Notes: a model not told the origin generated them from the sequence alone. DNA of 64,000 bases from Armatimonadetes bacterium DC (GCA_001442985.1 LDYB01000007.1:1-64000), one strand, 5' to 3'. Shown: positions 18,319 to 40,319, counted from the stretch's first letter. Program-made: numbers and translations.

Positions 18319-18633
18319 ATGGAGCGGTGCGAGCACTGCGGCACACTGAACGAGGGTTGTGCGAGAGCAGAAACTCCAAGCGATGTTTGCTCCCAGAAAG
18401 CAGGAATCCTTCCCCGCGAGGCGAATCTGCCTTGCAAGGAGGTGAGAGCCTCACTCCACAATCGAGCGAGTTGGGAAGCCTTCTGGGCGTGGCGTCGTGT
18501 GCCCACTCATTTTGAGCGCGGATGGCGCACTGAGCTCTTGTTGTGTTATTGGGCGTCTCCTATGCCTCCGAAGAAGGTAGCGGTTTGCTTTCTGCAGAAA
18601 GGCGAGCGCCACAAAAAAGGTCAACGCTCGTAA
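18319..18633 (+). CDS. Small hypothetical protein with Cys pair motif
   Basis: A 104-residue reading frame from ATG 18319, 20 nt after the rhodanese stop. It begins MERCEHCGTLNEGCARAET, a CxxC plus further Cys that could bind zinc. The rest is Trp-, Lys- and Arg-rich with no family I recognise. GGGAGGG lies only 2 nt before the ATG, too close for an ideal ribosome site. The frame may be a chance reading or a remnant. The sequence from here to 18950 holds no convincing gene other than this. Confidence 0.3.
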   Translation: MERCEHCGTLNEGCARAETPSDVCSQKAGILPREANLPCKEVRASLHNRASWEAFWAWRRVPTHFERGWRTELLLCYWASPMPPKKVAVCFLQKGERHKKGQRS

Positions 18634-18950: not shown

Positions 18951-19925
18951 ATGAAACGGACAAACCTCTTGTTGCTGGGGTACGACGCCGAGGGGCAGTT
19001 GACCAGCCTGCAGAAGCAAGGAGAGAGCGTGGGCTGGGTGTATGAGTATGACGGTTTGGGTCGTCGGGTGCGGGCGGTGCGTGGCACGCTTCAGGTGGCA
19101 TATCTTTATTCAGGCGATACGGTGGTGGCAGAGCGTGTGAATGGGGAGTGGGTATACTACGGGTACGGTAGTGTGATGTACGCCCAGTCATCCAGCACGG
19201 GGACTGAGTTCAAGCACTGGAACTTGCGTGGGGACTTAGCCGCGAAGTCCACTGCCAGTGGTGCGTACCTGCCTGCGCCCCTCACGGACGCCTTCGGCGA
19301 TTTGGTAAGCGGCACACGGGAGACTTACGACTGGAACGGGGCGTGGGGTTATCGGAATGAGCCGTTCAGTGGCGGGTTGGAGAAGGTGGGGGTTCGGTGG
19401 TATGACCCTGCAGTAGGGCGGTTTTTGCAGATGGATCCGTGGCTGGGGGATATTTATCAGCCGCTGACGCTGAACGGGTATGGGTATTGCTTGAATGACC
19501 CGCTGCAGTGCGTGGATCCGAGAGGGCTGTGGTACATCAAAATAGGATTCTCTCTCGATATAACCTTCGGTGGGTGGGTGAACCTGGAAATCGGTATTGG
19601 TGTAGGAACAGATCCTGGAGGGAGAATCGTGGGGCGACCATACATCAACACTGGGATAGGTGGAGGTGCTCCCCCTGCAGCAAGTGTTGGTATTCGGATC
19701 GGTGTCAGCCCAGGAGGGAATCTGCCCCCAAGAGGTGTGCCTAGAAACGATTTTGCAGGCACAGTGGGGATTACGACACCTGTGTGCGGTATTGATGTCA
19801 ATATTCCAATAAATATTCCTGTACCTGGCTGGCGCGACCCTGAATACGGGATTACCGTCGGTCCGACTTTTCCTCCGGGAATGCCGATGCTATACGGGGG
19901 TGTATCACAAACAATATGGCTGTGA
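18951..19925 (+). CDS. Rhs/YD-repeat C-terminal module A with variable tip
   Basis: 324 residues. After MKRTNLLL the sequence enters Rhs material abruptly ([25 protein letters not shown]). It continues into the Rhs-associated core: [37 protein letters not shown] (about residues 150-190). After DPRG a unique tip of about 135 Gly/Pro-rich residues follows with repeated short beta-like segments. The large N-terminal shell and any export signal are missing, so this is an orphan 3' module. It does have a ribosome site (GAGGAGG, 8 nt before ATG) and a TATAGT box. Rhs tips are usually toxins and the gene behind encodes immunity, but no toxin fold can be named here. Confidence 0.75.
19200..19520 (+). 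repeat. Rhs core repeat, copy A (copy B at about 20836-21163)
   Basis: The two Rhs modules share a core of about 325 bp. It includes an essentially identical tract from the GGATCC at 19433 to the DPRG/DPSG codons (19433-19519 and 21073-21162). Sequence identity stops right after the DP-x-G codons, where the tips begin. This long identical tract can support recombination that swaps tips. Confidence 0.75.
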
Positions 19926-20347
19926 AACAAAAAACTTTCAGAGTGGCTGCCGATATGGCACAGATTGTGAGGGAGTTCCGCCAGAGGTACTGGCGATGGC
20001 ACATCAGACTGCCATTTGGCTTGATTCTGTTGCCCATGCTGCCGTTTGCGTGCTTCCTTTCTTTTCTGTTTTACATCGAGGAGTGTGCATTAGAGGAGCT
20101 GGCTGCGCCAGAGAAAAGGTGTCCCCATAGGAGTGGTCTTGTTCGAGGTCTCGTTACCATCACAAAAGAGGTGATACGCTCCGGCTTCGTGAGCATAAGC
20201 TGGGATGTGGCAGATGAGTCGCTTGCCGATTGGCTTCAGCGCACGCATCGCGCTTTGTTTTCAGGGGGCTTGGTCGTATCTCTTGTCGTGGAGACGATTG
20301 CTTCTTTGGTGATATGGTACGCGCTGCTTTTGTCGATTGTGCAATAG
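19916..20347 (+). CDS. Membrane protein behind Rhs module A, candidate immunity protein
   Basis: 143 residues overlapping the Rhs module by 10 nt. Two or three hydrophobic helices are visible ([20 protein letters not shown] near residue 35 and [20 protein letters not shown] at the C-terminus) with a Cys-containing loop between. No family is recognised. The tight overlap with a variable Rhs tip is the classical place for a cognate immunity gene, and a membrane immunity protein would fit a membrane-acting tip. This is inference from position only. Confidence 0.5.
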
Positions 20348-20371
20348 CTGCACCCGGCTGGAGGAGGAGAG

Positions 20372-20800
20372 ATGAAGAGCAAGGTGCTGATTTTTCTGTT
20401 TGTAGGTTTAGCACTTGTTGTTGTGTGCTGCGGCACTGGTATTTACTTGGTTGTCCGCAACACTGTTTCGGGCTATCAGGAGATATCATCCACAGGCTTA
20501 CGAGTAGTGGAGCTCCTGAACAGGAACGCCTACGCATCGGTGGTAGAAATGGTGGCTCCATCATCGCGTGGGAATTTGTCAGAGCCTATCATTCGCCAGC
20601 GGTGGGAAATCTTCACACGCGCGATTGGAGGGGCGCGCACATGGGGCGTTCACGACTTCAATATCCAGTCGTTCGGTACTCGACAGCAAGCGAGTTTACG
20701 GATATGGGTTCGCGGGGACAAGGGGGAAGGCAGGGTAGACATCGAGTTTCAACAGCAGGGCGATAAGTGGTGGATTACGGACTTGAAATGGGTATGGTAA
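20372..20800 (+). CDS. Membrane-anchored small protein in the Rhs array
   Basis: 142 residues. An N-terminal hydrophobic helix (VLIFLFVGLALVVVCCGTG) anchors an alpha+beta domain ending GEGRVDIEFQQQGDKWWITDLKW, a layout seen in SnoaL/DUF4864-like folds. It follows GGAGGAGGAGAG and so is probably translated. It lies between Rhs modules A and B and may be a second immunity or accessory gene. Function unknown. Confidence 0.45.
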   Translation: MKSKVLIFLFVGLALVVVCCGTGIYLVVRNTVSGYQEISSTGLRVVELLNRNAYASVVEMVAPSSRGNLSEPIIRQRWEIFTRAIGGARTWGVHDFNIQSFGTRQQASLRIWVRGDKGEGRVDIEFQQQGDKWWITDLKWVW

Positions 20801-20817
20801 ATGTGGGGTAAACCGAC

Positions 20818-21480
20818 ATGGTTACTCGCTTCAGCACGGGAACGGAATATCAGCACTGGAGCTGGCGCGGGGATCTGGTGGCGAAGCCCACCGCCAGTGG
20901 CACATATTCGCCTGCGCCGATAACCGATGCGTTTGGCGACACGGTAAGCGGCACACGGGAGACTTACGACTGGAACGGGGCGTGGGGTTATCGGAACGAG
21001 CCGTTCAGTGGTGGGTTGCAAAAAGTGGGTGTGCGCTGGTACGACCCTGTGGTAGGGCGGTTTTTGCAGCTGGATCCATGGCTGGGGGATATTTATCAGC
21101 CGCTGACGCTGAACGGGTATGGGTATTGCTTGAATGACCCGCTGCAGTGCGTGGATCCGAGTGGCAAACTTCCAGTAATTGCGGTCATTTTGATAGGAGC
21201 AGTTAGTGGTGCAATTGCAGGCACGGTAACTGAAATTATCATCCAGTCCATAGATGACAAACCCGGCATAAACTGGGGCGATGTTGGTCAGGAAGCCATC
21301 GGCGGGGCTGTCGGAGGCGGGATTGCAGGACCTGTAAGTGGAAGGATCTTGCGCCCTGTAGGCAAATGGTGTGCCCGCCGGTTTTTTGGTCCGGGTCTCG
21401 GCGAAGGAAGACCGACCTTGCGAGCCAGCCGAAATCGGTGTCTTTACAACAAGTGTGATGGAGGAAGCGATAATGTCTGA
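20818..21480 (+). CDS. Rhs C-terminal module B with glycine-zipper tip
   Basis: 220 residues. The first 120 repeat the Rhs core of module A, in places identical at DNA level ([16 protein letters not shown], then [21 protein letters not shown]). The tip differs completely: [18 protein letters not shown] and [20 protein letters not shown] form a glycine-zipper region often found before toxin domains, and a short basic Cys-containing end follows. No good ribosome site precedes ATG 20818 and the N-terminus is a truncated core, so it may be a silent cassette kept for recombination into a full-length Rhs gene elsewhere. Confidence 0.65.
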
Positions 21481-26634: not shown

Positions 26635-26667
26635 TGTCTCACCCTGCGGTTGCAGTTGTCAATTAGT
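26630..26667. repeat. 38-bp direct repeat, left copy, flanking the island
   Basis: These 38 bp are identical to 35435-35472 in the same orientation. The left copy covers the amine oxidase start codon and leader. Sequence identity stops at both ends of both copies. The island between them (26668-35434) begins exactly where the 877-bp sigma cassette begins. Confidence 0.9.
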
Positions 26668-26781
26668 CAAGCACTGATTGGCGCAGGGCATAAAACCGTC
26701 TGTTTTGCGTGGCTGTTTGTTTTCGTTAGGCAGGAATCTCTCCATTCTGTGCGAATCGTAGTATTAGCAAGGAGGGCGACG

Positions 26782-27054
26782 ATGCCTACTTTGTGGGTTC
26801 ACGGACAACAGAAGCCTGCGCGGAGGCTTGGGAAGGCACTCTGTTCGGCATCCGCGGGCAATCTCGCACGGGGGGGGGGCGATGACCGACACTCGGCACT
26901 TTCCCGACGAGTCGCCGCGCGACCTGCCACTCGAATGGCAGCGTGCTATGCGCGTCGCCCTCCGACTGCTGGCACAGCGCTATCCCAACCCTTGCCCCGA
27001 TCCGCACGAATGGAAACGGGATTGCGAACAGGAAGCCTATGTCGCGCTTGCTGA
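26782..27054 (+). other. Possible leader ORF overlapping the sigma gene (copy A)
   Basis: ATG 26782 is preceded by AAGGAGG at 6-nt spacing, the best ribosome site in the cassette. The frame (MPTLWVHGQQKPARRLGKAL...) runs through the G-run and overlaps the sigma gene in a different frame to 27054. About 30 residues precede the G-run. It may only couple translation of the sigma gene. Loss of one G in the run would fuse it in frame to the sigma factor. The same ORF exists in copy B (from 32398). Codon content past the G-run is an out-of-frame reading of the sigma gene. Confidence 0.35.
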
Positions 27055-27493
27055 GGCTGCTCCCCGCTATGCCTGCCCCGATCCACCGCCTGCCGATCCT
27101 GAGCGGCATCACCTGTTGTGGCTAGCCAATCAGGCATATAATGCCCTGCGACGGTGGTGGCGTCAGGAAGTGCAGTACTACGCGCACACCGTGCCGATGG
27201 TGGTGGAGGAGGAAACGGGCGAGGAGGTGGAGATTGAGTTGGAGGATGCGGTGGCGGAGGCAGCGGTGCTGGCAGTGTTGGAGCGGATGTTTTGTGCGCA
27301 GGTATTGGAGCAGCTCTCCCCCTATTTGGATGCGAGGGACTGGGGGGTGTTGCAGGGTTTGGCGGAGGGGAGAACCCAGTCGGAGGTGGCACAGGAGTTG
27401 GGGATGACACAGCAGGCAGTGAGTAAGCGTTTGGGGGCGCTTCGGCGTTTGGCGCGGGCGATTTTGGGGGAATTGGGGTGCGAGTGGTTGTAA
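26882..27493 (+). CDS. Sigma-70-like (ECF type) RNA polymerase sigma factor, copy A
   Basis: 203 residues from ATG 26882. A region 2-like segment (about residues 15-85) contains WKRDCEQEAYVALAEAAPRY and LLWLANQAYNALRRWWRQEV. An acidic linker follows (EEETGEEVEIELEDA). Region 4 (about 150-200) has the helix-turn-helix LQGLAEGRTQSEVAQELGM followed by TQQAVSKRLGALRRLARAIL. The start directly follows a run of ten G and CG, which may act as a ribosome site. No anti-sigma factor is recognisable next to it. The protein is identical to copy B. It probably directs polymerase to promoters of the secreted cargo genes downstream, but that is inference. Confidence 0.75.
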   Translation: MTDTRHFPDESPRDLPLEWQRAMRVALRLLAQRYPNPCPDPHEWKRDCEQEAYVALAEAAPRYACPDPPPADPERHHLLWLANQAYNALRRWWRQEVQYYAHTVPMVVEEETGEEVEIELEDAVAEAAVLAVLERMFCAQVLEQLSPYLDARDWGVLQGLAEGRTQSEVAQELGMTQQAVSKRLGALRRLARAILGELGCEWL

Positions 27494-27534
27494 TTTTTGC
27501 GGCTGGATGGCATGTATAAGTAGGAGGCGGGAAT

Positions 27535-27551
27535 GGTGGTGTGGAACCACC
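27535..27551 (+). other. Hairpin after sigma cassette A
   Basis: GGTGGT (27535-27540) pairs with ACCACC (27546-27551) around a 5-nt loop. The stem spans the point where copies A and B diverge; copy B forms a different, stronger hairpin from the same left sequence. No T-tract follows. Confidence 0.4.
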
Positions 27552-27591
27552 CTGCCTGCCAACAGACCAAAACGATGGAGGAGGACAAACG

Positions 27592-28218
27592 ATGCGTATC
27601 CAGTATACTGTTCTTATTCTGATCGTTTGGATGATGCTCCAAACGCCCCAGACTCGTCTTGCATCGCGTTCCGAAGCTGTCGACTCACTGTTTGTATTAC
27701 TCAAGCCCGGACAAGTTTATACTCTTCGCTTTGATAAGCCTTTACCTGTAAGTGGTAAAAGTGAGTCTGAAAGACCCCCTTATAGGGAATGGGGGGCAGG
27801 ATATGTGGAATTCATAGAAGTCAATCCGCGTTTTATCCGGTTTCGTACTCTCACCTTGGAAGAAGCACTGAAAGAGGTAGAGAGAACAAACGCTAAGATC
27901 AAAAAGTGGGGAGGCGAGCCTGTTAATCCTGACTCCGTTCGTAGTGAATACGAAGGAGGATCCCCCTTTAACTTGGTTTACTATCTATGGTCGCCTCCTC
28001 AGGGGAATAGACCCGCCGTCAACAAGGATCTGCTTTTAGTTAGTTTTAGTATAGAGACTCCGCAAAGGCTGACTGTCGCCCATAAGAAACGCGTGGGCAC
28101 TAAAGGACTAGAGATCAAGCCAATGCTGAATCGCACGGGCGCGCGTCTTTTTCTTATCCCTGAAGGAAAAGGGTCAGCCTTATACATTGTGCCTTCCAAC
28201 AAGCGTTATTCACCATAA
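27592..28218 (+). CDS. Secreted hypothetical protein, first cargo gene after cassette A
   Basis: 208 residues from ATG 27592, preceded by GGAGGAGGA. The N-terminus MRIQYTVLILIVWMMLQTPQ is a signal peptide. The mature part is mixed alpha/beta and Lys-rich (VEFIEVNPRFIRFRTLTLEEALKEVERTNAKIKKW). No family or catalytic motif is recognised. Base composition is visibly lower in GC than the flanking chromosome, consistent with transfer. Confidence 0.6.
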   Translation: MRIQYTVLILIVWMMLQTPQTRLASRSEAVDSLFVLLKPGQVYTLRFDKPLPVSGKSESERPPYREWGAGYVEFIEVNPRFIRFRTLTLEEALKEVERTNAKIKKWGGEPVNPDSVRSEYEGGSPFNLVYYLWSPPQGNRPAVNKDLLLVSFSIETPQRLTVAHKKRVGTKGLEIKPMLNRTGARLFLIPEGKGSALYIVPSNKRYSP

Positions 28219-28221
28219 TAT

Positions 28222-28407
28222 TTGGAGGCGCAGCAGGTATTGCCGCCTTTCTGGGTCGTGCCGTTGACGGTGCGTGTGGACACGACGGGAAAGTCGGCAG
28301 GAGAACACCTCCAGCGTGTGGAACTGATTGTGCGGGATGGTCGCTATAGCTGGCGTGAGGGGATAGCGGTTCGGCTCACGGTGCAATCCGCCTTCAAATC
28401 ACGATAG
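28222..28407 (+). pseudogene. Fragment of a DUF1573-like domain protein
   Basis: A 61-codon frame opening at TTG 28222. VVPLTVRVDTTGKSAGEHLQ and VELIVRDGRYSWREGIAVRLTV read like the last beta strands of a DUF1573/ASH-type Ig-like domain, with the rest of the domain missing. There is no signal peptide and no real start. It is likely the 3' stub of a lost gene, showing recombination between cargo genes. Confidence 0.45.
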
Positions 28408-28419
28408 GAGGCGATGGAG

Positions 28420-28791
28420 ATGACGAGACGAGTAATGCAGATCAGTATGTGGACGCTGGCTCTCGTGATTATCTTGCCAGTGACTACGCTCATTTCATGT
28501 GGTGGCTGTCCAGATACACGCTCTGCAACGCATAACGAGGATCGCTATATCGAATGCATTGACACTCACTGCCATACCTGTTGGCGATACGCTAGACCTA
28601 TCCGGCAGGATTTCTGCGTTGGTGGCGCGAACGGCATGAGCTGCAAGTGCACTTCAAGAATGGTAGTTATCGATGTCAGCAGCTTTAAATGCGATCACTC
28701 GTGTAATTGCACATTTATCCCCGTTGGAAGACCGTTCACTTTTGAGGTTGAGGAACGCACCTGTTCCACCAGTTCCTGCCTAATTCCGTGA
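28420..28791 (+). CDS. Small Cys-rich exported lipoprotein-like protein
   Basis: 123 residues. ATG 28420 is preferred because AGGAGG lies 8 nt upstream; ATG 28414 would have only 2 nt. The signal segment ends LISCGGC, a possible lipobox. The mature part has about 15 cysteines in pairs (CIDTHCHTC, CKCTS, CDHSCNC, CSTSSC), suggesting a disulfide-stabilised extracellular protein. No family is recognised. It is followed 30 nt later by a larger exported protein; the same small Cys-rich/large pair recurs at 33202 and 35072. Confidence 0.6.
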   Translation: MTRRVMQISMWTLALVIILPVTTLISCGGCPDTRSATHNEDRYIECIDTHCHTCWRYARPIRQDFCVGGANGMSCKCTSRMVVIDVSSFKCDHSCNCTFIPVGRPFTFEVEERTCSTSSCLIP

Positions 28792-28821
28792 GTCCCGAAG
28801 CCGCTCAGGGAGAGGAAAGGC

Positions 28822-29958
28822 ATGCGAAGAGTAGCACTGGGGCTTTGCAAATGGCTGGCTTTGCTAAGTGTATTGTACGCCCAGACAGGAGGCGTGCTGG
28901 AGCGCCTGCAGCGATATCAGCAGCAGTACGATGAATGGGCATCCCAGCACACCTTCTTCTGGCAAATCGTGTACTCTGAATCGAACAACCTGGCAGCCGT
29001 TGAGCAGGAACTTACTTCTCGGAGAGAGACTGGTCATTTCAGAATTCTGACCCCTCCCTCAATGTCAGTGGTTGCACACCTTACAATTGCTCGCACCCCA
29101 GAACTAAGCATGGTAGTGCTTAAACATGTAAGCGGTGATTGGTTTCCTGGCTACAGTAAGGTTCTACGCATCTATCGAGGGCGGGACTGGCTGTCAGTCG
29201 ATGGGGGCGAGGCAGGAGGGGTAGACACAGAGCAAATCTCCCAGACTGTTTATATTATACCTCTTCCGCAAGGAAAGCATATTTTGCTGGACTCGTTGTC
29301 CTTCGCACCAACCCTGCATCCCGCTTTTTTCGCTGGGACCAGTCCTTTTGAACCAGCATTTAAATGCATTCCGCGCCCCGAATGGCTTCTCGACAAAGCA
29401 ACAGATTCCCAGATTATCCTGAAACAGCTATTTGAGAATGGGGCTGCCGAGAAAGGGGGTTATTACCTGATTCTTCATCCTGAAGGCTGGGTTCAAGAAT
29501 TTCAGGTACGACCGAATCCCACCACGATTCAAAGTCGGATTACCGTCCTAAAGACCCAGAGGCATGGCAACTTTGTTGTACCTTCGGAAGTGCTGGCAGA
29601 GTTTCGTTGGAAGAATTTTAGTCAAGCGCGTTTGGTTGCGCGACTGGTTCGCCTTGAAAAGACTGGAACAGTCAAGGTAGAGCATCCTATCGGTGCGCAT
29701 GTCAGCGATTATCGACTCACGAACCCCGACCAGTGGTGCACTGATGGTGCGGGCAAAGTGGTGAATTATATCTGGAAAGGTCAGTTACCCACTCTAACAG
29801 AGCTGGAGCAGAGGTATCAGGCAGCTTCTCCGCCAGCGGGTATCCCCATTCCACCTGCCCGGCAAGGGCGGTGGTGGCTCTATTTACCAGGTATCCTTTT
29901 AGTTGTTGCAGGCGCCTATCTATGGTGGCGTAGCAAGCGGGTGACGAAGATGGGGTGA
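28822..29958 (+). CDS. Exported protein with C-terminal membrane anchor
   Basis: 378 residues. The signal peptide (MRRVALGLCKWLALLSVLYAQ) is followed by a helical segment ERLQRYQQQYDEW and a large domain of unknown type. A Pro-rich linker and a C-terminal transmembrane helix (LPGILLVVAGAYLWW) with RSKR come last, giving a type I orientation. No catalytic motif is seen. It overlaps the next gene (prepilin) by 4 nt. Confidence 0.6.
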   Translation: MRRVALGLCKWLALLSVLYAQTGGVLERLQRYQQQYDEWASQHTFFWQIVYSESNNLAAVEQELTSRRETGHFRILTPPSMSVVAHLTIARTPELSMVVLKHVSGDWFPGYSKVLRIYRGRDWLSVDGGEAGGVDTEQISQTVYIIPLPQGKHILLDSLSFAPTLHPAFFAGTSPFEPAFKCIPRPEWLLDKATDSQIILKQLFENGAAEKGGYYLILHPEGWVQEFQVRPNPTTIQSRITVLKTQRHGNFVVPSEVLAEFRWKNFSQARLVARLVRLEKTGTVKVEHPIGAHVSDYRLTNPDQWCTDGAGKVVNYIWKGQLPTLTELEQRYQAASPPAGIPIPPARQGRWWLYLPGILLVVAGAYLWWRSKRVTKMG

Positions 29959-30776
29959 AAAGAAGCGGTTTTTCCCTTGCAGAGTTGCTGGTGGTCATCG
30001 GTATTCTCATGCTGCTGACCGCACTACTGTTTCCCGTGCTACAATCCGCACGAGAGGGTGGACGGCGTAGTAAATGTATCACCCAAATGCGCCAGCTCGG
30101 ACACAGCGTGCTGACGTATCTTGCCGACTTCGATGAAACCTATCCCATGGCGGCTTATGTGCAGCCTTCCGCACCCAACGGAGGGTGCCTCTTCACACTT
30201 TACCACGCACTGGCGCCTTATATTCAAGATAAGCAAATCGTGGTCTGCCCGTCCGACAATCGTCCAGTGGATGTGGTTCAGGTGTTTGCCAATCACTGGG
30301 AGCTTTGTCCTGCGATGGGGTTTCGGCACACCAGCTATATGGCAAACTGGTGCCTATTCGAGGTAGGCTGGCTACCGCCGTGGCTATCTTTACCGCATCA
30401 GGTGATTTCCGCAAGCAAGCTGGAGTATATTGCCCAGACGGTAGCTTTCTTCGACGCGGTGATGACCGGTCCTCCGGGTTTAACACCCTATGTGCAGGGG
30501 CGCCATCTGGAGATCGCCATCGCCAACTTCGCAGATGGACACGCGCAGCCGCTACATACGCGCTACACTGCGATAGCGATTCCGCGTGGGGACGGCGGTA
30601 CCGCACCACTTTATTGCCTGCTCGATGTGGGACCCTATTATTCCGGAGATGGCTTTTGTGAAGGGATGATATTCGGGTTAGCAGCCAAGCGTCGGGATGG
30701 GCGCTGGTGCTGGCACTGTCCAGGACGACCGCGTGAAAGTCGCTGGTATATGCAAGGCAGTTGTGAGACTCCATAA
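29955..30776 (+). CDS. Prepilin-like protein with H-x9-DG motif (island copy)
   Basis: 273 residues starting at GTG 29955, overlapping the previous stop. The cleavage site is KRSGFSLAELLVVIGI. The stalk is followed by GGRRSKCITQMRQLG, and the C-terminal HLEIAIANFADGH carries an exact H-x9-DG. It is divergent in sequence from the chromosomal prepilin at 7965. It would need the host prepilin peptidase. Its presence between an anchored protein and Lnt suggests an envelope-directed operon. Confidence 0.8.
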   Translation: MKRSGFSLAELLVVIGILMLLTALLFPVLQSAREGGRRSKCITQMRQLGHSVLTYLADFDETYPMAAYVQPSAPNGGCLFTLYHALAPYIQDKQIVVCPSDNRPVDVVQVFANHWELCPAMGFRHTSYMANWCLFEVGWLPPWLSLPHQVISASKLEYIAQTVAFFDAVMTGPPGLTPYVQGRHLEIAIANFADGHAQPLHTRYTAIAIPRGDGGTAPLYCLLDVGPYYSGDGFCEGMIFGLAAKRRDGRWCWHCPGRPRESRWYMQGSCETP

Positions 30777-30806
30777 ACTATCCTTTGGTAGAAAGAGGGT
30801 CGGTGG

Positions 30807-32309
30807 ATGTGGGGCGCCGCAGGCTTAATCATCAGTGGTTGTGGACTGGCATTGGCATTTACGCCAGGGAAGGGGTGGTTACTGTTATGGATGCCAGCAC
30901 TCACTTTCTGGCTGCTGCGCAATGTGGGTTGGCGTCCTGGACTGATAGGCGGCTGGCTCTGGGGTTTGAGCTTCTATCTGGTTCATGGCTTTTGGGGACT
31001 GCCTGTGTTTGAGCAACGAGCGGCGTCACCACTCTACGCGGGCATAGCCTGGGCAATCACCGCTTTGTGGTTGGGCTTCTTTTACGCACTCTTCGGATTA
31101 CTCCTGAATCTCATCCCAACAACGAGCTGGTTTGGGCGCGCCGTTGGAGGCGCCTCCGCGTGGACAGTTTGCCAGTGGTTGCAGGGCCTGGGTTCCTACA
31201 GTCTGCCCTGGGCACAGTGGGGAATAGCCCTGACCCAAATACCACTCCTGATTCAGCTGGTCGATTTAGGCGGTGTGTGGTTCTTAGAATGGATGATCGC
31301 CTACTGGAACATGCTGCTGTGCGAGTTCGTTCGTGGAACAACCGAGCAATTGGCTACAGCACAGCTACGAAACAAGGTGGCAGCCATGCTAATCGTGGTC
31401 GCTTTGTTTTGGGGGAGCTATGGCGCGCTTCGTTTAAATCAATACAGAGATACTGACTTGAGCAAGGAAGCGACGAAGATACGTGTGGGTATATTGCAGT
31501 ATCAAGAGCATCCTATCGCAGAGCGCAACGAACAGGTTCTTGACTTCTGGATTACCAAAACTCAACAACATAAACCGGAGTGGCTGGTTCTGCCCGAATC
31601 GACAGTGCAGCTTGACCCATCCAACCCTGACTGGCAACGCTGGCAGCAGCACATCCGAACCCTCAATAGCATGGTACTGGTGGGCACGGGACGTCGCGTG
31701 GGTTCTGGATATCGGGCGAACAGTGCCTGTTTACTGATGGCAGATCGGGAGCCAGTATGTTCCGATAAAGTGAAACTGATGCCCTTCACAGAGTTACCTC
31801 CACCCCTGCCAACGCTCAGCTTCTGGCAAGCACTCGGACTGGATTCCAAGAGTACCGTCCAATCCGGTAAACAGCCCATAGCCCTGCAAGGCGCGGATGG
31901 CAGGCGGGTGGGCGCATTGATTTGCGTCGAGTCGTTGTATGGCTGGGTGGCACGCGAGATGGTGAGGAATGACGCCCAGTGGATCGCTGTATTGACCAAC
32001 GATGAGTGGCTCCCCTCAGGGATGACTCGCGGGCAGTTTGCTCAGTATTGTGCCCTGCGTGCAGTGGAATGTCGCCGCTGGATTGCGCGGGCGTCTTCGG
32101 TGGGTGTTAGTGGGTTTTATGCGCCGACAGGGGAACTCGTCGCGTCGTTGCCGATGGGCAAGCCGGGCGTGCTGGTATACCCCATCACCCCTCGCACTGA
32201 CCAGACCCTCTATGTGCGTTGGGGCGACTGGTGGGTCTATCTCTGTTTAGCAGCGATGATTGTCGTATGGCTCGGACGGTTGTCAAGCACTGATTGGCGC
32301 AGGGCATAA
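30807..32309 (+). CDS. lnt: Apolipoprotein N-acyltransferase (Lnt)
   Basis: 500 residues. Five or six N-terminal membrane helices precede a carbon-nitrogen hydrolase domain with the Glu-Lys-Cys triad in LPESTVQ, KVKLMPFTELPP and LICVESLYG, and a C-terminal membrane helix. It adds the third acyl chain to lipoproteins. Carriage of lnt on an island next to a putative lipoprotein gene is notable. The last eight residues (SSTDWRRA) and the stop are encoded by the first bases of sigma cassette B, so the native C-terminus was probably replaced when the cassette joined. Confidence 0.85.
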   Translation: MWGAAGLIISGCGLALAFTPGKGWLLLWMPALTFWLLRNVGWRPGLIGGWLWGLSFYLVHGFWGLPVFEQRAASPLYAGIAWAITALWLGFFYALFGLLLNLIPTTSWFGRAVGGASAWTVCQWLQGLGSYSLPWAQWGIALTQIPLLIQLVDLGGVWFLEWMIAYWNMLLCEFVRGTTEQLATAQLRNKVAAMLIVVALFWGSYGALRLNQYRDTDLSKEATKIRVGILQYQEHPIAERNEQVLDFWITKTQQHKPEWLVLPESTVQLDPSNPDWQRWQQHIRTLNSMVLVGTGRRVGSGYRANSACLLMADREPVCSDKVKLMPFTELPPPLPTLSFWQALGLDSKSTVQSGKQPIALQGADGRRVGALICVESLYGWVAREMVRNDAQWIAVLTNDEWLPSGMTRGQFAQYCALRAVECRRWIARASSVGVSGFYAPTGELVASLPMGKPGVLVYPITPRTDQTLYVRWGDWWVYLCLAAMIVVWLGRLSSTDWRRA

Positions 32310-33158
32310 AACCGTCTGTTTTGCGTGGCTGTTTGTTTTCGTTAGGCAGGAATCTCTCCATTCTGTGCGAATCGTAGTATTAGCAAGGAGGGCGACGATG
32401 CCTACTTTGTGGGTTCACGGACAACAGAAGCCTGCGCGGAGGCTTGGGAAGGCACTCTGTTCGGCATCCGCGGGCAATCTCGCAGGGGGGGGGGGCGATG
32501 ACCGACACTCGGCACTTTCCCGACGAGTCGCCGCGCGACCTGCCACTCGAATGGCAGCGTGCTATGCGCGTCGCCCTCCGACTGCTGGCACAGCGCTATC
32601 CCAACCCTTGCCCCGACCCGCACGAATGGAAACGGGATTGCGAACAGGAAGCCTATGTCGCGCTTGCTGAGGCTGCTCCCCGCTATGCCTGCCCCGATCC
32701 ACCGCCTGCCGATCCTGAGCGGCATCACCTGTTGTGGCTAGCCAATCAGGCATATAATGCCCTGCGACGGTGGTGGCGTCAGGAAGTGCAGTACTACGCG
32801 CACACCGTGCCGATGGTGGTGGAGGAGGAAACGGGCGAGGAGGTGGAGATTGAGTTGGAGGATGCGGTGGCGGAGGCAGCGGTGCTGGCAGTGTTGGAGC
32901 GGATGTTTTGTGCGCAGGTATTGGAGCAGCTCTCCCCCTATTTGGATGCGAGGGACTGGGGGGTGTTGCAGGGTTTGGCGGAGGGGAGAACCCAGTCGGA
33001 GGTGGCACAGGAGTTGGGGATGACACAGCAGGCAGTGAGTAAGCGTTTGGGGGCGCTTCGGCGTTTGGCGCGGGCGATTTTGGGGGAATTGGGGTGCGAG
33101 TGGTTGTAATTTTTGCGGCTGGATGGCATGTATAAGTAGGAGGCGGGAATGGTGGTGT
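32282..33158 (+). repeat. 877-bp sigma-factor cassette, copy B
   Basis: Nearly identical to 26666-27542. The left junction lies inside the end of lnt. The right junction is after GGTGGTGT, beyond which only a short imperfect similarity (CCAAAACGATGGAGGAG) continues in both copies up to the next start codon. Confidence 0.92.
32498..33109 (+). CDS. Sigma-70-like (ECF type) RNA polymerase sigma factor, copy B
   Basis: 203 residues, identical to the product of 26882-27493. The start ATG 32498 follows eleven G and CG; in copy A the run is ten because of one substitution, so total length is the same. Two identical sigma genes would give a doubled dose, and deletion between them by homologous recombination would remove all cargo from 27543 to 33158. 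The cargo behind this copy is a Cys-rich protein and a 399-residue exported protein. Confidence 0.75.
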   Translation: MTDTRHFPDESPRDLPLEWQRAMRVALRLLAQRYPNPCPDPHEWKRDCEQEAYVALAEAAPRYACPDPPPADPERHHLLWLANQAYNALRRWWRQEVQYYAHTVPMVVEEETGEEVEIELEDAVAEAAVLAVLERMFCAQVLEQLSPYLDARDWGVLQGLAEGRTQSEVAQELGMTQQAVSKRLGALRRLARAILGELGCEWL

Positions 33159-33168
33159 TCTCCCGCCT
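33141..33168 (+). other. Hairpin after sigma cassette B
   Basis: AGGCGGGA (33141-33148) pairs perfectly with TCCCGCCT (33161-33168) around a 12-nt loop. There is no T-run behind it, so it is more likely a leader or attenuator-like structure for the next gene than a terminator. Confidence 0.45.
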
Positions 33169-33201
33169 GCCAACGAACCAAAACGATGGAGGAGAATGAA
33201 G

Positions 33202-33771
33202 ATGATATGGCGACAGAAGATACTGTGGGTAAGCACACTCACATTGGTTGTAACCGTCGGTATTGGACGCGGTGCACCCAATCTGTCATACTCCACCAAT
33301 GATGACCCGTGTCAGTGTTCGTCTGGCTGGCAGGTTAATAACCCTGTACAATTCATCCAAGACACTCCGCAAGGTCAACATGTACATGAAAACCCACACT
33401 GCGATAGAAGTCTTCTTATACCAGAAGAGTGTGGATATACGCGTAAGCGCATAATAGGGGAATGGCGCTGTGGCGAAGGTGGGCGCTCTCACAGATGTAA
33501 TAATATCCCCTGGTCGCTTACGGGCTCTGATGAGAGTTATCCAGTGTGCTTTCCGGCTGAGGGACTGGGGGCATGCACAGGTGTTATACACATATTTAAC
33601 TTACACCAAGTAACCGTGAAGCAAGTCGCACGTTGTCCTGATACAGGAGCTTGTCGCGAGCGCATTCAGATTGATAGCATCCCGGAAAGGTTTACAATAT
33701 CATACATCATACAGGATTGCCCATGCAAACCAGTACCAGAAGAGCCGGTCGTGGTTGTAATTTCACATTGA
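33202..33771 (+). CDS. Cys-rich secreted hypothetical protein
   Basis: 189 residues. ATG 33202 has GGAGGAG at 7-nt spacing, better than ATG 33196. The signal peptide is MIWRQKILWVSTLTLVVTVG. The mature part has many cysteines (CQCSSG, CGEGG, CPDTGACRE, CPCKP) spread over 150 residues, suggesting several disulfides. No family is recognised. It is the first cargo gene of cassette B and the counterpart of the Cys-rich gene at 28420, with which it shares only layout and the CPDT motif. Confidence 0.6.
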   Translation: MIWRQKILWVSTLTLVVTVGIGRGAPNLSYSTNDDPCQCSSGWQVNNPVQFIQDTPQGQHVHENPHCDRSLLIPEECGYTRKRIIGEWRCGEGGRSHRCNNIPWSLTGSDESYPVCFPAEGLGACTGVIHIFNLHQVTVKQVARCPDTGACRERIQIDSIPERFTISYIIQDCPCKPVPEEPVVVVISH

Positions 33772-33787
33772 TCTGGAGGGACATACA

Positions 33788-34987
33788 ATGCTGAAAACGA
33801 TTACTTTATGGGCATCCATGCTGCTTGTCGCATCGAACCTGATGGCTCAGTCTCCAATTATTGTAGTGGGTGCGGTAAGTGATCATGAGCGTCAGTACGC
33901 TGTCGAGTTGTTGCGGGCTGTCGAAATTGAGCGAATCCAGCAGTTTCACGCGTTTCAGCAACGCGCGAAGCAACTGGGCTTTGTTGTGGAGGCTCATGGG
34001 AACTACTGGTTCGTTCTGCCGCGGAGTATTGGACCCGACAGCATCTATGGCTATGCTGCGGCACTGCTGCGTGGGTTGAAAGAGCTGTCCTCAGTGCCCG
34101 GTACCTTTCGCGTGGATGACCTCCCAGCCCCAGCGCGCGAAGCCTGTAGGGAGTTGCTGCTTCGTATCGGAGAACTTGCCCTTAGCAGCTTTCAACCCGA
34201 GTTGCAGCAATCCCTGCAAAGCGCTCTTGGACAGGCAGTAGAACAAAAGCCGTTAGCGCTCTCACTTATGGAAAAGAACCAGCTATCGATCTCGATCCAT
34301 GTTGCCTTGCGTCCCCAGATAGGTATTGGTGAGCATTCACTGCGCATTCCCCCGATTGTCCTCTTTGTTCCGCGCTCTTCACCGCTTCCCGCGGATCTTC
34401 AAGCCCGAGTCGAACAGCTGCTTGCATCCCAAGAAACGGCTACCTCGCCCTTGCCCAGCCATCGTGAGCGTGATTCGGCTTTGCAGACGCTGCCGCTGCC
34501 CGCTGCTTGGAGCCAAGCGGCGAAGGAGTTACGCGAGCGTCGTGGCGTGGCTTTTGCTCATCTCGATCTCTACTTCTCCAAAACGCTAACACCTTCTGAG
34601 GCAGCTCAGGTTGGGCAGGAGTACCTTCGGCGCCTCGAACACCAGGCACTGCAAGCACAGGGGTCATTCAAAAATGCTTTGCGTGATCTTGTAGAGCATT
34701 GGGCAGCTCAAAATGCCTTTTTGAAAGAAAACCTTCCACCCTTTGGGCGAATTCCATTCAACAAGCTTTCCTCCTACCTCCAGCACCAATTGATGGACAT
34801 GCTGAGAGGTTATAAGGGTGATACTGCTCTCCTATCGCAAATTCAAAACAGCGGCTGGTTCCAGCTCTCGCCCAACGACATAGATATTGTTATCAGCTAT
34901 CCCACCCGAGCAATCCCATTACCCAATATGGAGGACCTTGTCATTTATGACTGGAGAGGTTATTTGCTCACCGATCTCATGCGGTGA
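33788..34987 (+). CDS. Large secreted hypothetical protein
   Basis: 399 residues. Signal peptide MLKTITLWASMLLVASNLMAQ. The mature part is mostly helical (ERQYAVELLRAVEIERIQQFHAF; SEAAQVGQEYLRRLEHQAL) with no cysteine cluster and no known motif. The gene follows the Cys-rich gene by 16 nt with a CTGGAGGG ribosome site, so the two are likely co-expressed. Partnership between the two products is plausible but unproven. Confidence 0.6.
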   Translation: MLKTITLWASMLLVASNLMAQSPIIVVGAVSDHERQYAVELLRAVEIERIQQFHAFQQRAKQLGFVVEAHGNYWFVLPRSIGPDSIYGYAAALLRGLKELSSVPGTFRVDDLPAPAREACRELLLRIGELALSSFQPELQQSLQSALGQAVEQKPLALSLMEKNQLSISIHVALRPQIGIGEHSLRIPPIVLFVPRSSPLPADLQARVEQLLASQETATSPLPSHRERDSALQTLPLPAAWSQAAKELRERRGVAFAHLDLYFSKTLTPSEAAQVGQEYLRRLEHQALQAQGSFKNALRDLVEHWAAQNAFLKENLPPFGRIPFNKLSSYLQHQLMDMLRGYKGDTALLSQIQNSGWFQLSPNDIDIVISYPTRAIPLPNMEDLVIYDWRGYLLTDLMR

Positions 34988-35253
34988 ACAGAGACTCAGC
35001 TCGAAAACATGGAGTGGTCCTTTGGCGAGGCGTTAAGCGAGTGGGCTAAACTGATGGAGGAGGTATGAGGCGAGGAATACGCAGAGTGCTTCCCGAGTAG
35101 AGGAAGCGAGTGCACCTATGACGGTTTTGGCGAGATCAAGGTGCAGTGGACAGAACAGGCCACTTGTGTGCCGAGCCGTCAGGTTTGCAAATGCGGTTCA
35201 TTCAGTAGGTTGGATTTCCCTATAGTGGGAACAAACATTGTGAGGAAGTGCCA
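34988..35253 (+). other. Stretch with degraded cargo sequence
   Basis: Between the 399-residue protein and the last island ORF there is no intact gene. GGAGGAGG at 35056-35063 followed by ATG 35065 looks like a cargo-gene start, but that frame stops after 11 codons. A shifted frame from 35072 is open and Cys-rich (separate entry). Confidence 0.5.
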
Positions 35254-35257
35254 ATGA
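35072..35257 (+). pseudogene. 3' remnant of a third Cys-rich secreted protein gene
   Basis: A 61-residue frame with no start codon: EEYAECFPSRGSECTYDG, then CVPSRQVCKCGSFSR, ending VRKCQ. Its cysteine spacing resembles the other two Cys-rich cargo proteins. A stop lies immediately upstream in frame (35066-35068). The last codons overlap the next start as ATGA, as between functional cargo genes. It appears to be a frameshifted or truncated third copy of the Cys-rich position. Confidence 0.5.
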
Positions 35258-35434
35258 AACAAATTGATCTGAGTCAGTGGTTAGTCGCTTGCTATCAATC
35301 CTTCGCCCGTCGGATCGGGTTGACAGGGCTGGTGGGATTGTTGCTATGCTGCTGCGCTTTCGGAGAGGGGAGGGCACCCTCCCCGACATACTACGATGCT
35401 CGGGAGCGCGCTGCCGCTGCACTGACATTTGAGT

Positions 35435-35472
35435 CACATTGTCTCACCCTGCGGTTGCAGTTGTCAATTAGT
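35435..35472. repeat. 38-bp direct repeat, right copy
   Basis: Identical to 26630-26667. Joining 26667 directly to 35473 recreates a plausible ancestral order (glyQ, then the amine oxidase promoter and gene on the minus strand) without the island. Confidence 0.9.
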
Positions 35473-35475
35473 GTA
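35470..35475 (-). promoter_or_regulatory. Orphaned -10-like element TACACT, ancestral amine oxidase promoter
   Basis: On the minus strand GGGTACACT straddles the edge of the right repeat and matches the window's common motif. At the left repeat the corresponding bases read TTGACT, so the element is lost there. It now points into the truncated island end. Confidence 0.4.
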
Positions 35476-35522
35476 CCCAGTCGCGAGGGGTTGCACAAGC
35501 GGCGTGCCTGTTTCTCTGGGCT

Positions 35523-36425
35523 TTACCGTCTTGTTGCGGGTAGCCCCACGCGCCATTCTTTCTGGAGCAGGGGGAAACCTTCCGCCTCGCGCTTCTCCAG
35601 ATATTTGAGGCAGCAGGCGCGCGCCAGAGTGCGAATGCGCTGAATATAACTGGCACGCTCCGTAACCGAGATGCTCCCCCGCGCGTCCAGTAGATTGAAG
35701 ATGTGGGAGCACTTCAGGGCGAGATCAAACGCCGGGTGAACCCAGCCTTTCTCCACGATACGGGCGCTCTCTTTTTCGTACATCTCGAACAGGCGGAACA
35801 GCATTTCGGTATCCGCCTCTTCAAAGTTGTAATAGTTATGCTCCAGCTCGGCAAGGTAGTCCACATCGGCGTAGGTAATGCCGCGCCCCCATTCCAGTTC
35901 CCATACGCTGTTTTTCTTTTGCAACAGCATGCAGAGCCGTTCGGGACCGTAGGTAATCTCGGCGCACACGGGGTCGCACTCGATGCCGCCCACCTGCTGA
36001 AAGTAGGTGAACTGGGTGATTTCGGTGCCGTTGAGCCACACCTCCCAGCCAACGCCCGACGCCCCCAGGGTGGGCGCCTCCCAGTCGTCCTCGACGAAGC
36101 GGATGTCATGTTCGCTGGGTTCGATTCCAATCGCACGCAGACTTTCCAGATAGACATCCACCACATCGTCGGGCGAAGGCTTCAGTATCACCTGATACTG
36201 GTAGTAATGCTGGAGGCGCATCGGGTTGCGTGCGTAGCGCCCGTCGGCGGGGCGCCGCGAAGGTTGCACATAGGCGACATACCATGGCTCTGGTCCCAGC
36301 GCCCGCAGAGTGGTGTAGGGCGCCATCGTGCCTGCGCCAACCTCCACATCGTAGGGCTGCAGGATTAAACAGCCGTAATCCGCCCAGAACTGTTCCAGCC
36401 GAAAGAGCAGCTCCTGAAAAGTCAT
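35523..36425 (-). CDS. glyQ: Glycyl-tRNA synthetase alpha subunit
   Basis: 300 residues, usual length. Class II motifs for the alpha2beta2 type are present: [31 protein letters not shown] at the N-terminus, [35 protein letters not shown] and [13 protein letters not shown]. It charges tRNA-Gly together with GlyS. No glyS gene is adjacent, so the two subunits are unlinked here. A GGGTACACT box ends 8 nt before the ATG. Confidence 0.96.
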
Positions 36426-38479: not shown

Positions 38480-39808
38480 ATGATCACTCGTCTGCAGATT
38501 GAGAACTTTAAGTCATGGAAGCAGGCGGATTTGCCCTTCGGCAAAATAACTGCCTTCTTCGGGGCAAACAGCTCGGGCAAGACCAGCATCCTGCAGCTCC
38601 TCTTACTACTAAGGCAGACGGTGGACTGGCCCGACCCCTCCATCCCGCTCTTTCTTGGCGACCGGGAGAGCCTTGTGGATTTGGGAACCTTCTACGACCT
38701 GATTCATCAGCACAATCTATCTGAAACCCTGCGCTGGCGATTGGAGTGGCAGATTAAGCCGCGCAAGCTGTTTGGCATCAAAAATGTCCAGCGTATCGAG
38801 CATTCAGCAGAAATAGGTTGGGAAGGCGTTGGGCAGTCGGGGCGCATGGTTGTGCGCGCTCTCAGCTACCGATTCGATGGGCGCCAAGTTAGCTACCTGC
38901 GTACAGAGAAAGGGTACGATGTTCGGTCGGAACCACCGCAGTTGCTTGCGCGTTCTCCCGGACGCCCGCCCGTGCATAGAGAACCCATCAATTGTTACGG
39001 CTTTCCCGACTCGGTGCGGATTGCTTTTCAGAACGCTGAGCCGCTGTTCGAACTGGCATACGAACTGACCAGCCTTGCCCAGCGGATTTACTACCTCGGT
39101 CCCTTGCGGGAGTATCCCCAGCGCCAATACCTCTGGTCAGGAGCGGAACCAAGCGATGTGGGCATGCGCGGCGAAAATACAATTGCTGCACTTCTGACTT
39201 CACGCCGGCATGGCAAAAAGATTCCCCGCAAAAAACGACACTCCCAGACGGTGGAGGAAGCCGTTGCAGAGCAGCTCAAGAAACTGGGCGTGATCTATTC
39301 GTTCGATGTGAGAACGATTGCCGAAGGCAGTCGCCTCTACGAGGTCAAGGTGCGTCTTGCGCCCCAATCGCCCGAAGTGTCGCTGGTCGATGTGGGGTTC
39401 GGGGTTTCGCAGATGCTGCCCGTGATAACCCTCTGTTATTTTGTGCCAAAAGGTTCTGTTGTCATCCTGGAGCAGCCCGAGATTCACCTGCACCCTGCTG
39501 TGCAGATGCGACTCGCGGATGTCCTCATCGACGCGGTGCAAAGAAACGGCATCCAGATTGTTCTCGAAAGCCATAGCGAACACTTGTTGACGCGCTTGCA
39601 GCGCCGTGTCGCTGAAGGGAAAATCTCCCACGAAGATGTGAAGCTCTATTTTTGCCAGTTTGACGGGCAAAAGTCTATTGCAGAGCCGCTTGCGCTCGAT
39701 GTGTACGGTCAAATTTCCAACTGGCCTGCAGATTTCTTTGGCGACCTGATGACCGAAGCGATAGAAACCCAAAAAGCACGCATCCAGAGAATGAAGAATG
39801 AAAAGTAA
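38480..39808 (+). CDS. SMC/OLD-like AAA ATPase (DUF3696 type)
   Basis: 442 residues. MITRLQIENFKSWKQADLPFG is followed by Walker A GANSSGKTS (about residues 30-38). Near the C-terminus come SLVDVGFGVSQMLPVI (ABC-signature-like), Walker B VVILEQPEIHLHPAVQ and the H-loop SHSEHLLTRLQRRV. This is the arrangement of RecF/OLD-type ATPases with a DUF3696 tail (LYFCQFDG). It overlaps a PIN-like nuclease gene by 11 nt. ATPases of this type are common sensor subunits of two-gene anti-phage systems. Alternative: an uncharacterised DNA repair pair. Confidence 0.85.
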   Translation: MITRLQIENFKSWKQADLPFGKITAFFGANSSGKTSILQLLLLLRQTVDWPDPSIPLFLGDRESLVDLGTFYDLIHQHNLSETLRWRLEWQIKPRKLFGIKNVQRIEHSAEIGWEGVGQSGRMVVRALSYRFDGRQVSYLRTEKGYDVRSEPPQLLARSPGRPPVHREPINCYGFPDSVRIAFQNAEPLFELAYELTSLAQRIYYLGPLREYPQRQYLWSGAEPSDVGMRGENTIAALLTSRRHGKKIPRKKRHSQTVEEAVAEQLKKLGVIYSFDVRTIAEGSRLYEVKVRLAPQSPEVSLVDVGFGVSQMLPVITLCYFVPKGSVVILEQPEIHLHPAVQMRLADVLIDAVQRNGIQIVLESHSEHLLTRLQRRVAEGKISHEDVKLYFCQFDGQKSIAEPLALDVYGQISNWPADFFGDLMTEAIETQKARIQRMKNEK

Positions 39809-40319
39809 AGCATTGACTTCTGTCGTAGTGATAGATACAAATGTGTTATATGCTGCCGACGACTTCACCGATCCCAACTGTCAGGCTACCTGTTTGCAGA
39901 AAGTAGAAGCGGTTCGGGAAGGCAAACTACGGATTGCTCTCGACACATACGGATATATCCTTGAGGAATATGCGCGGAACACCCGAACACTTGACAACAC
40001 AAGCGTGAGAAAGCAATTTGTCAACTGGCTACGCGGGTACCTGTATACCCGGTGCCTGATTGTAGACCCGCAACCGACGGACGAATCGCGCGTCAACTTC
40101 AGATTGTTTCCAGCTGCGCTTGAGCATGCCAATTTCCATCAGGACGACAGGAAGTTCGTCGCCGTTGCGATTGCTGCCCAGCAGGCAACGGGGCAAACGG
40201 TGCCCATTCTGAACGCAATTGATTCGGATTGGTGTCATCATTACGCTTTGCTTCTGCAGAACGGCATTCAAGTGCATTTTCTGTGCCCTGACCGAATGCC
40301 CTCCGACGAGTGCCGTTAG
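39798..40319 (+). CDS. PIN-like domain putative ribonuclease
   Basis: 173 residues from ATG 39798, inside the end of the ATPase gene. The acidic residues of a PIN fold can be placed: VVIDTNVLYAAD (first Asp), EEYARN (Glu), DDRKFVAVAIAA (Asp pair) and AIDSDW (last Asp). PIN proteins cleave RNA in toxin-antitoxin and defence systems. Overlap with the ATPase implies a stoichiometric pair in which the ATPase controls the nuclease. It converges on the P-type ATPase gene with a 4-nt overlap. Confidence 0.7.
   Translation: MKSKALTSVVVIDTNVLYAADDFTDPNCQATCLQKVEAVREGKLRIALDTYGYILEEYARNTRTLDNTSVRKQFVNWLRGYLYTRCLIVDPQPTDESRVNFRLFPAALEHANFHQDDRKFVAVAIAAQQATGQTVPILNAIDSDWCHHYALLLQNGIQVHFLCPDRMPSDECR

Follow-up and report, generated by a model that had tools for sequence, protein, structure and literature searches.

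The repeated sigma factor gene and its neighbors

The window analyzed here, which is the whole 64,000-nucleotide stretch of DNA from Armatimonadetes bacterium DC (LDYB01000007.1:1-64000), contains two direct repeats of 877 bp on the plus strand, copy A at 26666..27542 and copy B at 32282..33158, whose identity is interrupted by just two substitutions, C at 26869 versus G at 32485 and T at 27001 versus C at 32617. Identity of 99.8% over 877 bp cannot be the result of chance. The original prediction had given the extent of this pair and the number of substitutions exactly, and was equally accurate in attributing one 203-residue sigma-like protein to both copies, as the same 203-aa ORF begins with ATG at 26882 in copy A and at 32498 in copy B. 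Its statement that identity stops about 50 bp past the stop codon needs some qualification: exact identity does end at 27542 and 33158, but homology resumes after a 5-bp indel and extends as far as the ribosome-binding site of the gene that follows (...ACCAAAACGATGGAGGAG). On the left, the repeat starts inside lnt (apolipoprotein N-acyltransferase), the gene in front of copy B, and takes in its final 28 nt. There are only two full copies in the 2.85-Mb assembly, both on one contig, plus three weaker, partial matches elsewhere. A mobile element was considered and rejected, as the borders carry neither inverted repeats of at least 60 bp, nor a tRNA, nor a recognised transposase.

The 203-aa ORFs (26882..27493 in copy A and 32498..33109 in copy B, both +) were assigned as ECF-type sigma genes based on several lines of evidence. 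The copy A protein matches the sigma-70/ECF superfamily model TIGR02937 over its length at 2.5e-9 and 37 bits, which is slightly under the family cut-off of 42.9, and the paralogues C16 and C19 score above that cut-off. Both of the regions expected of an ECF sigma factor, sigma-70 regions 2 and 4, were found in the family, region 4 in eight of nine members and region 2 in three of the nine. Consistent with this assignment, a profile of the family matched CnrH in the PDB at 1e-10, along with other ECF sigma factors, and the best fold match of the predicted structure, which is of moderate quality (pLDDT 74, pTM 0.47), was the Mtb ECF sigma factor SigL. Judged by sequence and predicted fold, the encoded protein is a divergent ECF-type sigma factor. 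It resembles other ECF sigma factors in regions 2 and 4, in size and in the GGAATC-type promoter motif upstream of its own gene, but differs from them, beyond the low score of copy A, in that the cassette sigmas are multi-copy, are exchanged between loci and are followed by secreted ORFans, and in that no anti-sigma family was recognised among the neighbors of the sigma genes. These neighbors are ORFans, so a divergent anti-sigma factor could escape recognition.

Copy A is followed, on the same strand, by genes for a 208-aa secreted ORFan that is weakly similar to the cargo of the C16 locus (27592..28218), a 125-aa secreted Cys-rich protein with 13 Cys (28414..28791), a 378-aa secreted protein with a C-terminal membrane segment (28822..29958) and a prepilin-like DUF1559 protein with an N-methylation motif (29955..30776), and then by lnt (30807..32309, +), which lies directly 5' of copy B. 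The cargo of copy B comprises a 191-aa secreted Cys-rich protein with 12 Cys (33196..33771, +) and a 399-aa secreted ORFan (33788..34987, +). Each cargo therefore combines a small Cys-rich protein, with 12-13 Cys, and one of 378-399 aa, to which A adds the 208-aa protein, and none of the downstream secreted genes of A or B has a Pfam or NCBIfam family. The gene order sigma, Cys-rich protein, 300-400-aa protein occurs again in the relative JP3_11 and twice in tandem in the genome G001. A defence function for the cargo was rejected, as it had no PADLOC match. Elsewhere in the window, an AAA ATPase and PIN-like pair at 38480-40319 matched the PADLOC candidate defence models HEC-03B (2e-136) and HEC-03A (1e-22).

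Promoter-like motif, leader ORF and poly-G tract

Upstream of each sigma gene is a promoter-like motif of putative function, GCAGGAATC-N13-CGAATC, at 26730..26757 in copy A and 32346..32373 in copy B (both +). The pattern GGAATC-N13-CGAATC has 19 matches in the genome, compared with 0 for a reversed-pattern control. We suggest that the sigma factor recognizes this motif in front of itself and would so transcribe its own promoter. An extra GCAGGAATC-N13-CGAATC motif at 18400-18427 is followed by AAGGAGG, without a clear start codon, and is perhaps a decayed cassette.

Next comes a leader ORF (26782..27054 in copy A, where its ribosome site is AAGGAGGGCGACG, and 32398..32670 in copy B, both +), and within it a poly-G tract. 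In copy A the tract is G10 (26870..26879, +) and lies 2 nt 5' of the sigma ATG; in copy B it is G11 (32485..32495, +), its first G being the C-to-G substitution described above, such that the total length equals that of copy A. The leader of copy A, in its present frame, passes both the G tract and the sigma start and has 90 codons. The original prediction was incomplete in missing the leader ORF and the poly-G tract, which are probably the main functional feature of the repeat.

Homologous tracts of G7-G11 were identified 2-9 nt 5' of the sigma start, behind a leader ORF with a Shine-Dalgarno sequence and ATG, at 16 loci from the window genome, a contig assigned to J014, HRbin15 (G002), JP3_11 (G009), G008 (HOT.MAX.079) and G016. 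Every leader copy of the family that was found precedes a sigma gene. The leader frame is open through the G tract at all 16 loci, and for eleven leaders the joint P under base shuffling was ~7e-5, a value that is optimistic since the leaders are related and their starts were chosen by a lenient rule. A conserved leader peptide was rejected because JP3_11 C211 and C211b read homologous leader DNA in different frames.

The frames of leader and sigma gene are shared at 9 of the 16 loci, shifted by one at five (A, B, the J014 slot corresponding to B, C16 and C38b) and by two at the remaining two; the excess of in-frame loci has a P of 0.017, which is again optimistic given that the loci are related. 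At all 16, the homopolymer is placed so that changes in its length alter the reading frame, as is typical of contingency loci. Comparison of tract lengths, which are assembly-derived and may contain errors, shows that the G run differs between paralogues and between close relatives in a manner that would alter the frame after the leader: HRbin15 C38a has G10, in frame, versus G8, out of frame, in C38b, with identical flanks, and a second case, in G004 and JP3_11, is described below. Copies A and B and the J014 slot B have equal total tract lengths.

These frame relationships bear on programmed slippage of RNA polymerase or of the ribosome, which would always produce mixed frames and would set the sigma level whatever the length of the DNA tract. 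Such slippage would be compatible with the slippery nature of long G runs and with the occurrence of leaders in each of the three frames relative to sigma, but the offset between leader and sigma is not constant, as a programmed shift would need, and relatives differ in tract length at the DNA level; we consider this explanation improbable. A single programmed frameshift was rejected, as the required shift differs between loci.

Behind the sigma gene is a 3' module (27517..27591 in copy A and 33133..33195 in copy B, both +), which in A consists of an inverted repeat, GGCGGG...CCTGCC, and the ribosome site of the next gene, and which is also found after other sigma genes. A conserved RNA structure in this module was rejected: the inverted repeat is visible, but folding was no better than that of shuffles (z -1.15 to 0.35).

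Reuse and exchange of cassettes among relatives

The proposal that one regulator module is reused before different payloads agrees with what was found in relatives. The family has at least five members in HRbin15, four plus a fragment in the window genome and at least two in JP3_11, and their first cargo genes are mostly non-homologous; the original prediction had named a cassette that is single-copy elsewhere, with constant genes behind it, as the result that would speak against it, and this is not the situation in the relatives. HRbin15 contains a near-identical pair, C38a and C64 (96.7%), before different cargo, as well as a tandem C38a-cargo-C38b array in which a 4-nt deletion breaks C38b. 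JP3_11 originates from Jinata Onsen, an iron-rich intertidal hot spring (46 C) (PMC5629042), and by extrapolation from its relatives the window organism may also be of a hot-spring type.

The contig assigned to J014, RFGC01000034.1, is ~99.9% identical to the window over 30600-32544 (99.5-100% per 200-bp bin over ~30600-32400) and 99.8% identical over 33133-35434. Between these matching flanks, in place of ~32545-33132 of copy B, is a different sigma gene whose product has 36% aa identity to that of the window, and the right border of the replacement is the 3' module. Since lnt and the cargo genes are the same and only the sigma between leader and 3' module differs, it is the regulator itself that was swapped. 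The DNA of this slot-B sigma is 96.7-97.8% identical to two HRbin15 genes at other loci; over a flagellar stretch, the window genome and HRbin15, which belongs to another genus, have ~71% DNA identity. In slot A of the J014 contig, both the sigma and the first cargo gene are different again. The cassette reading of the original prediction thus requires amendment: a module is indeed reused before different cargo, but the picture is not that of a constant regulator with variable cargo, because J014 replaces the sigma alone in slot B and the sigma plus first cargo gene in slot A. Across genera, leaders are 96-98% identical versus 82-83% for the sigmas behind them. The simplest account of these exchanges would be recombination at the leader on one side and at the 3' module on the other, both of which are shared. 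A double assembly error behind the J014 swap is unlikely, because the J014 leader has substitutions of its own and only a short 3' stretch is shared.

J014, which is labelled Acidobacteria, was rejected as a sister genome, as it has few related sigmas; their scarcity indicates that RFGC01000034 was probably misbinned. Relative to this contig, the window gene at 35248-35643 is truncated at ~35434. The J014 counterpart is intact (354 aa) and is followed by a gene of 317 aa with 91% identity to the HRbin15 C38a cargo, and on this comparison the truncation is a deletion in the window genome.

The origin of copy A could be deduced from its left end. In copy B, HRbin15 C64, JP3_11 C211 and the J014 contig, lnt is directly 5' of the sigma gene, while copy A begins with the final 28 nt of lnt although lnt itself is not adjacent to it. 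Because of this lnt fragment, and of the linkage of lnt and sigma in three relatives, copy A is taken to be a recent copy of B, with B in the ancestral position after lnt; the right border of the copying is inside the shared 3' module. Overall, comparison of the loci shows that cassettes move by exchange, the borders of which fall in the 5' leader and 3' module that they have in common, and that slot A recently received its copy from B. Among the assembled sequences compared, none had the 5.6 kb between A and B deleted or inverted, variants that had been envisaged.

We also weighed the possibility that the pair arose through misassembly, or through a single segmental duplication of no functional significance. 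With just two differences in 877 bp the event must be very recent, only two full copies exist and the assembly is a draft; however, the copies share a contig and can be told apart by distinguishing bases and by their 3' modules, HRbin15 has the same kind of duplication, and the same two modules form the borders of the J014 exchange, with only a short shared stretch in the 3' one. In view of these observations, this explanation is very improbable.

J014 slot B, where a variable piece was exchanged and the flanks were conserved, is reminiscent of Borrelia vlsE and Neisseria pilE/pilS, in which a variable central part is likewise bounded by conserved sequence and loci are copied into one another in the manner of gene conversion. 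They differ in that the variable piece here is a transcription regulator and the copies are complete loci of an expressed type. No silent, promoterless donor cassettes and no array of them were found in the family, in which the only decayed members seen were the C16 fragment and HRbin15 C38b.

Poly-G tracts at other genes and a proposed sigma switch

Genome-wide, there are 18 runs of G8 or more, and those of at least G9 are confined to leaders, signal-peptide regions and another sigma gene. An orthologous gene for a 966-aa secreted protein has G10 in G004, a one-contig genome (G004:C1:1415791), versus G11 in JP3_11 (G009:C216:1167); the alignment of the two has 2677 columns and 98% identity, with two indels, one of 3 nt and the other a single G of the tract. 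With G10, the G004 gene encodes the 966-aa ORF, and with G11 the JP3_11 gene reaches a stop after 25 codons. A second secreted family has in-frame G9 tracts in JP3_11 and in G004; a further G004 locus and the window genome have G10 or G11, which puts them out of frame. Judging by the G004/JP3_11 pair, tracts of this type seem to act at several genes of the lineage.

An alternative is that the G run serves only as a ribosome-binding site, pairing by G-C and G-U with the anti-Shine-Dalgarno sequence, and that the leader is a uORF that couples translation through the NTGA overlap of leader stop and sigma start, with no switch and with duplication and exchange being ordinary homologous recombination. 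Supporting this alternative, a start codon, ATG in most cases, follows the tract at ribosome-site spacing (2-9 nt) at 16 of 16 loci, and NTGA is present at 15 of them. In G001 and G013, furthermore, a conventional purine-rich ribosome site stands in the place of the G tract; that of G013 reads GGGGAGGAG, and the leader stop in G013 overlaps the sigma ATG. On the other hand, a normal AGGAGG would suffice without a slippery tract, runs of at least G9 are otherwise nearly absent and sit at other leaders and signal-peptide regions without a new start, the leader is in frame with sigma at more than one third of the loci, and at other genes a change in tract length goes with truncation. We regard the alternative as rather unlikely, but it supplies the strongest objection to a switch: because a start codon always follows the tract, and G001 and G013 have an ordinary site there, sigma may always start internally with the tract as a ribosome site only. 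The frame-switch and ribosome-site roles may also hold together.

Our favored interpretation, which we consider reasonably probable, is that these are phase-variable, recombinationally exchanged ECF sigma cassettes that control variable secreted proteins, the switching being inferred from the assemblies. Each cassette would comprise, in order, the promoter, a short translated leader ORF, 7-11 G, the ECF-type sigma gene and a 3' module leading into variable secreted-protein genes. We speculate that slippage in the G run toggles sigma between a leader-fused protein, re-initiation at the NTGA overlap and an out-of-frame state that would lower sigma. Copies A and B are both out of frame in this assembly; the loss of one G would give a leader-sigma fusion, and the gain of one would place the leader TGA over the sigma ATG. 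The position of the cargo genes suggests that they are targets of the sigma factor, in which case the switch would alter which secreted proteins a cell makes.

Poly-G/poly-C contingency loci, as in Campylobacter, Helicobacter and Neisseria, undergo phase variation by slipped-strand mispairing; the best-documented examples of phase variation come from host-associated bacteria and concern surface or DNA-modification genes. The loci described here are similar to them in having a G tract early in an ORF with frame-switching length differences, and in their occurrence at several loci per genome, many of them at secreted proteins. They are different in that the tract precedes an ECF sigma family, in that a distinct leader ORF is present and a further start codon follows the tract, and in that the lineage is uncultured and partly from hot springs. 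ECF sigma factors, poly-G contingency tracts and gene conversion are each known singly; their combination appears to be without precedent in the open-access literature searched, in which no report of this system was found. More tentatively, we propose a two-layer system in free-living Armatimonadota-like bacteria, in which the swapping of sigmas between loci and genera, together with independent poly-G switching, could generate shifting sigma-driven sets of secreted proteins. If a sigma family is both phase-variable and exchangeable, whole regulons would come under stochastic control in free-living, uncultured bacteria.

Several additional features were observed. In the window genome, contigs C10 and C18 have, from base 21, paralogous signal-peptide starts (MKRTN...SFAG...) that lead into G10 and then TAAATAGTGTCAA; these starts are exactly at contig ends, and the motif is present, in and out of frame, in large secreted proteins of relatives. 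An in-frame G9 occurs in another ECF sigma gene (C14:264639), where it lies between regions 2 and 4, and two paralogous secreted-protein genes (C21:79 and C23:4497) have a leader of ~25 codons, G9 or G10, and a signal peptide. Within the window, an RHS-core-like coding segment at 19193-21131 is present in two copies that are 85% identical over 300 nt, and an in-frame 42-nt tandem repeat at 2183-2434 encodes a coiled-coil-like motif (SHQAAIERLERLEQ).
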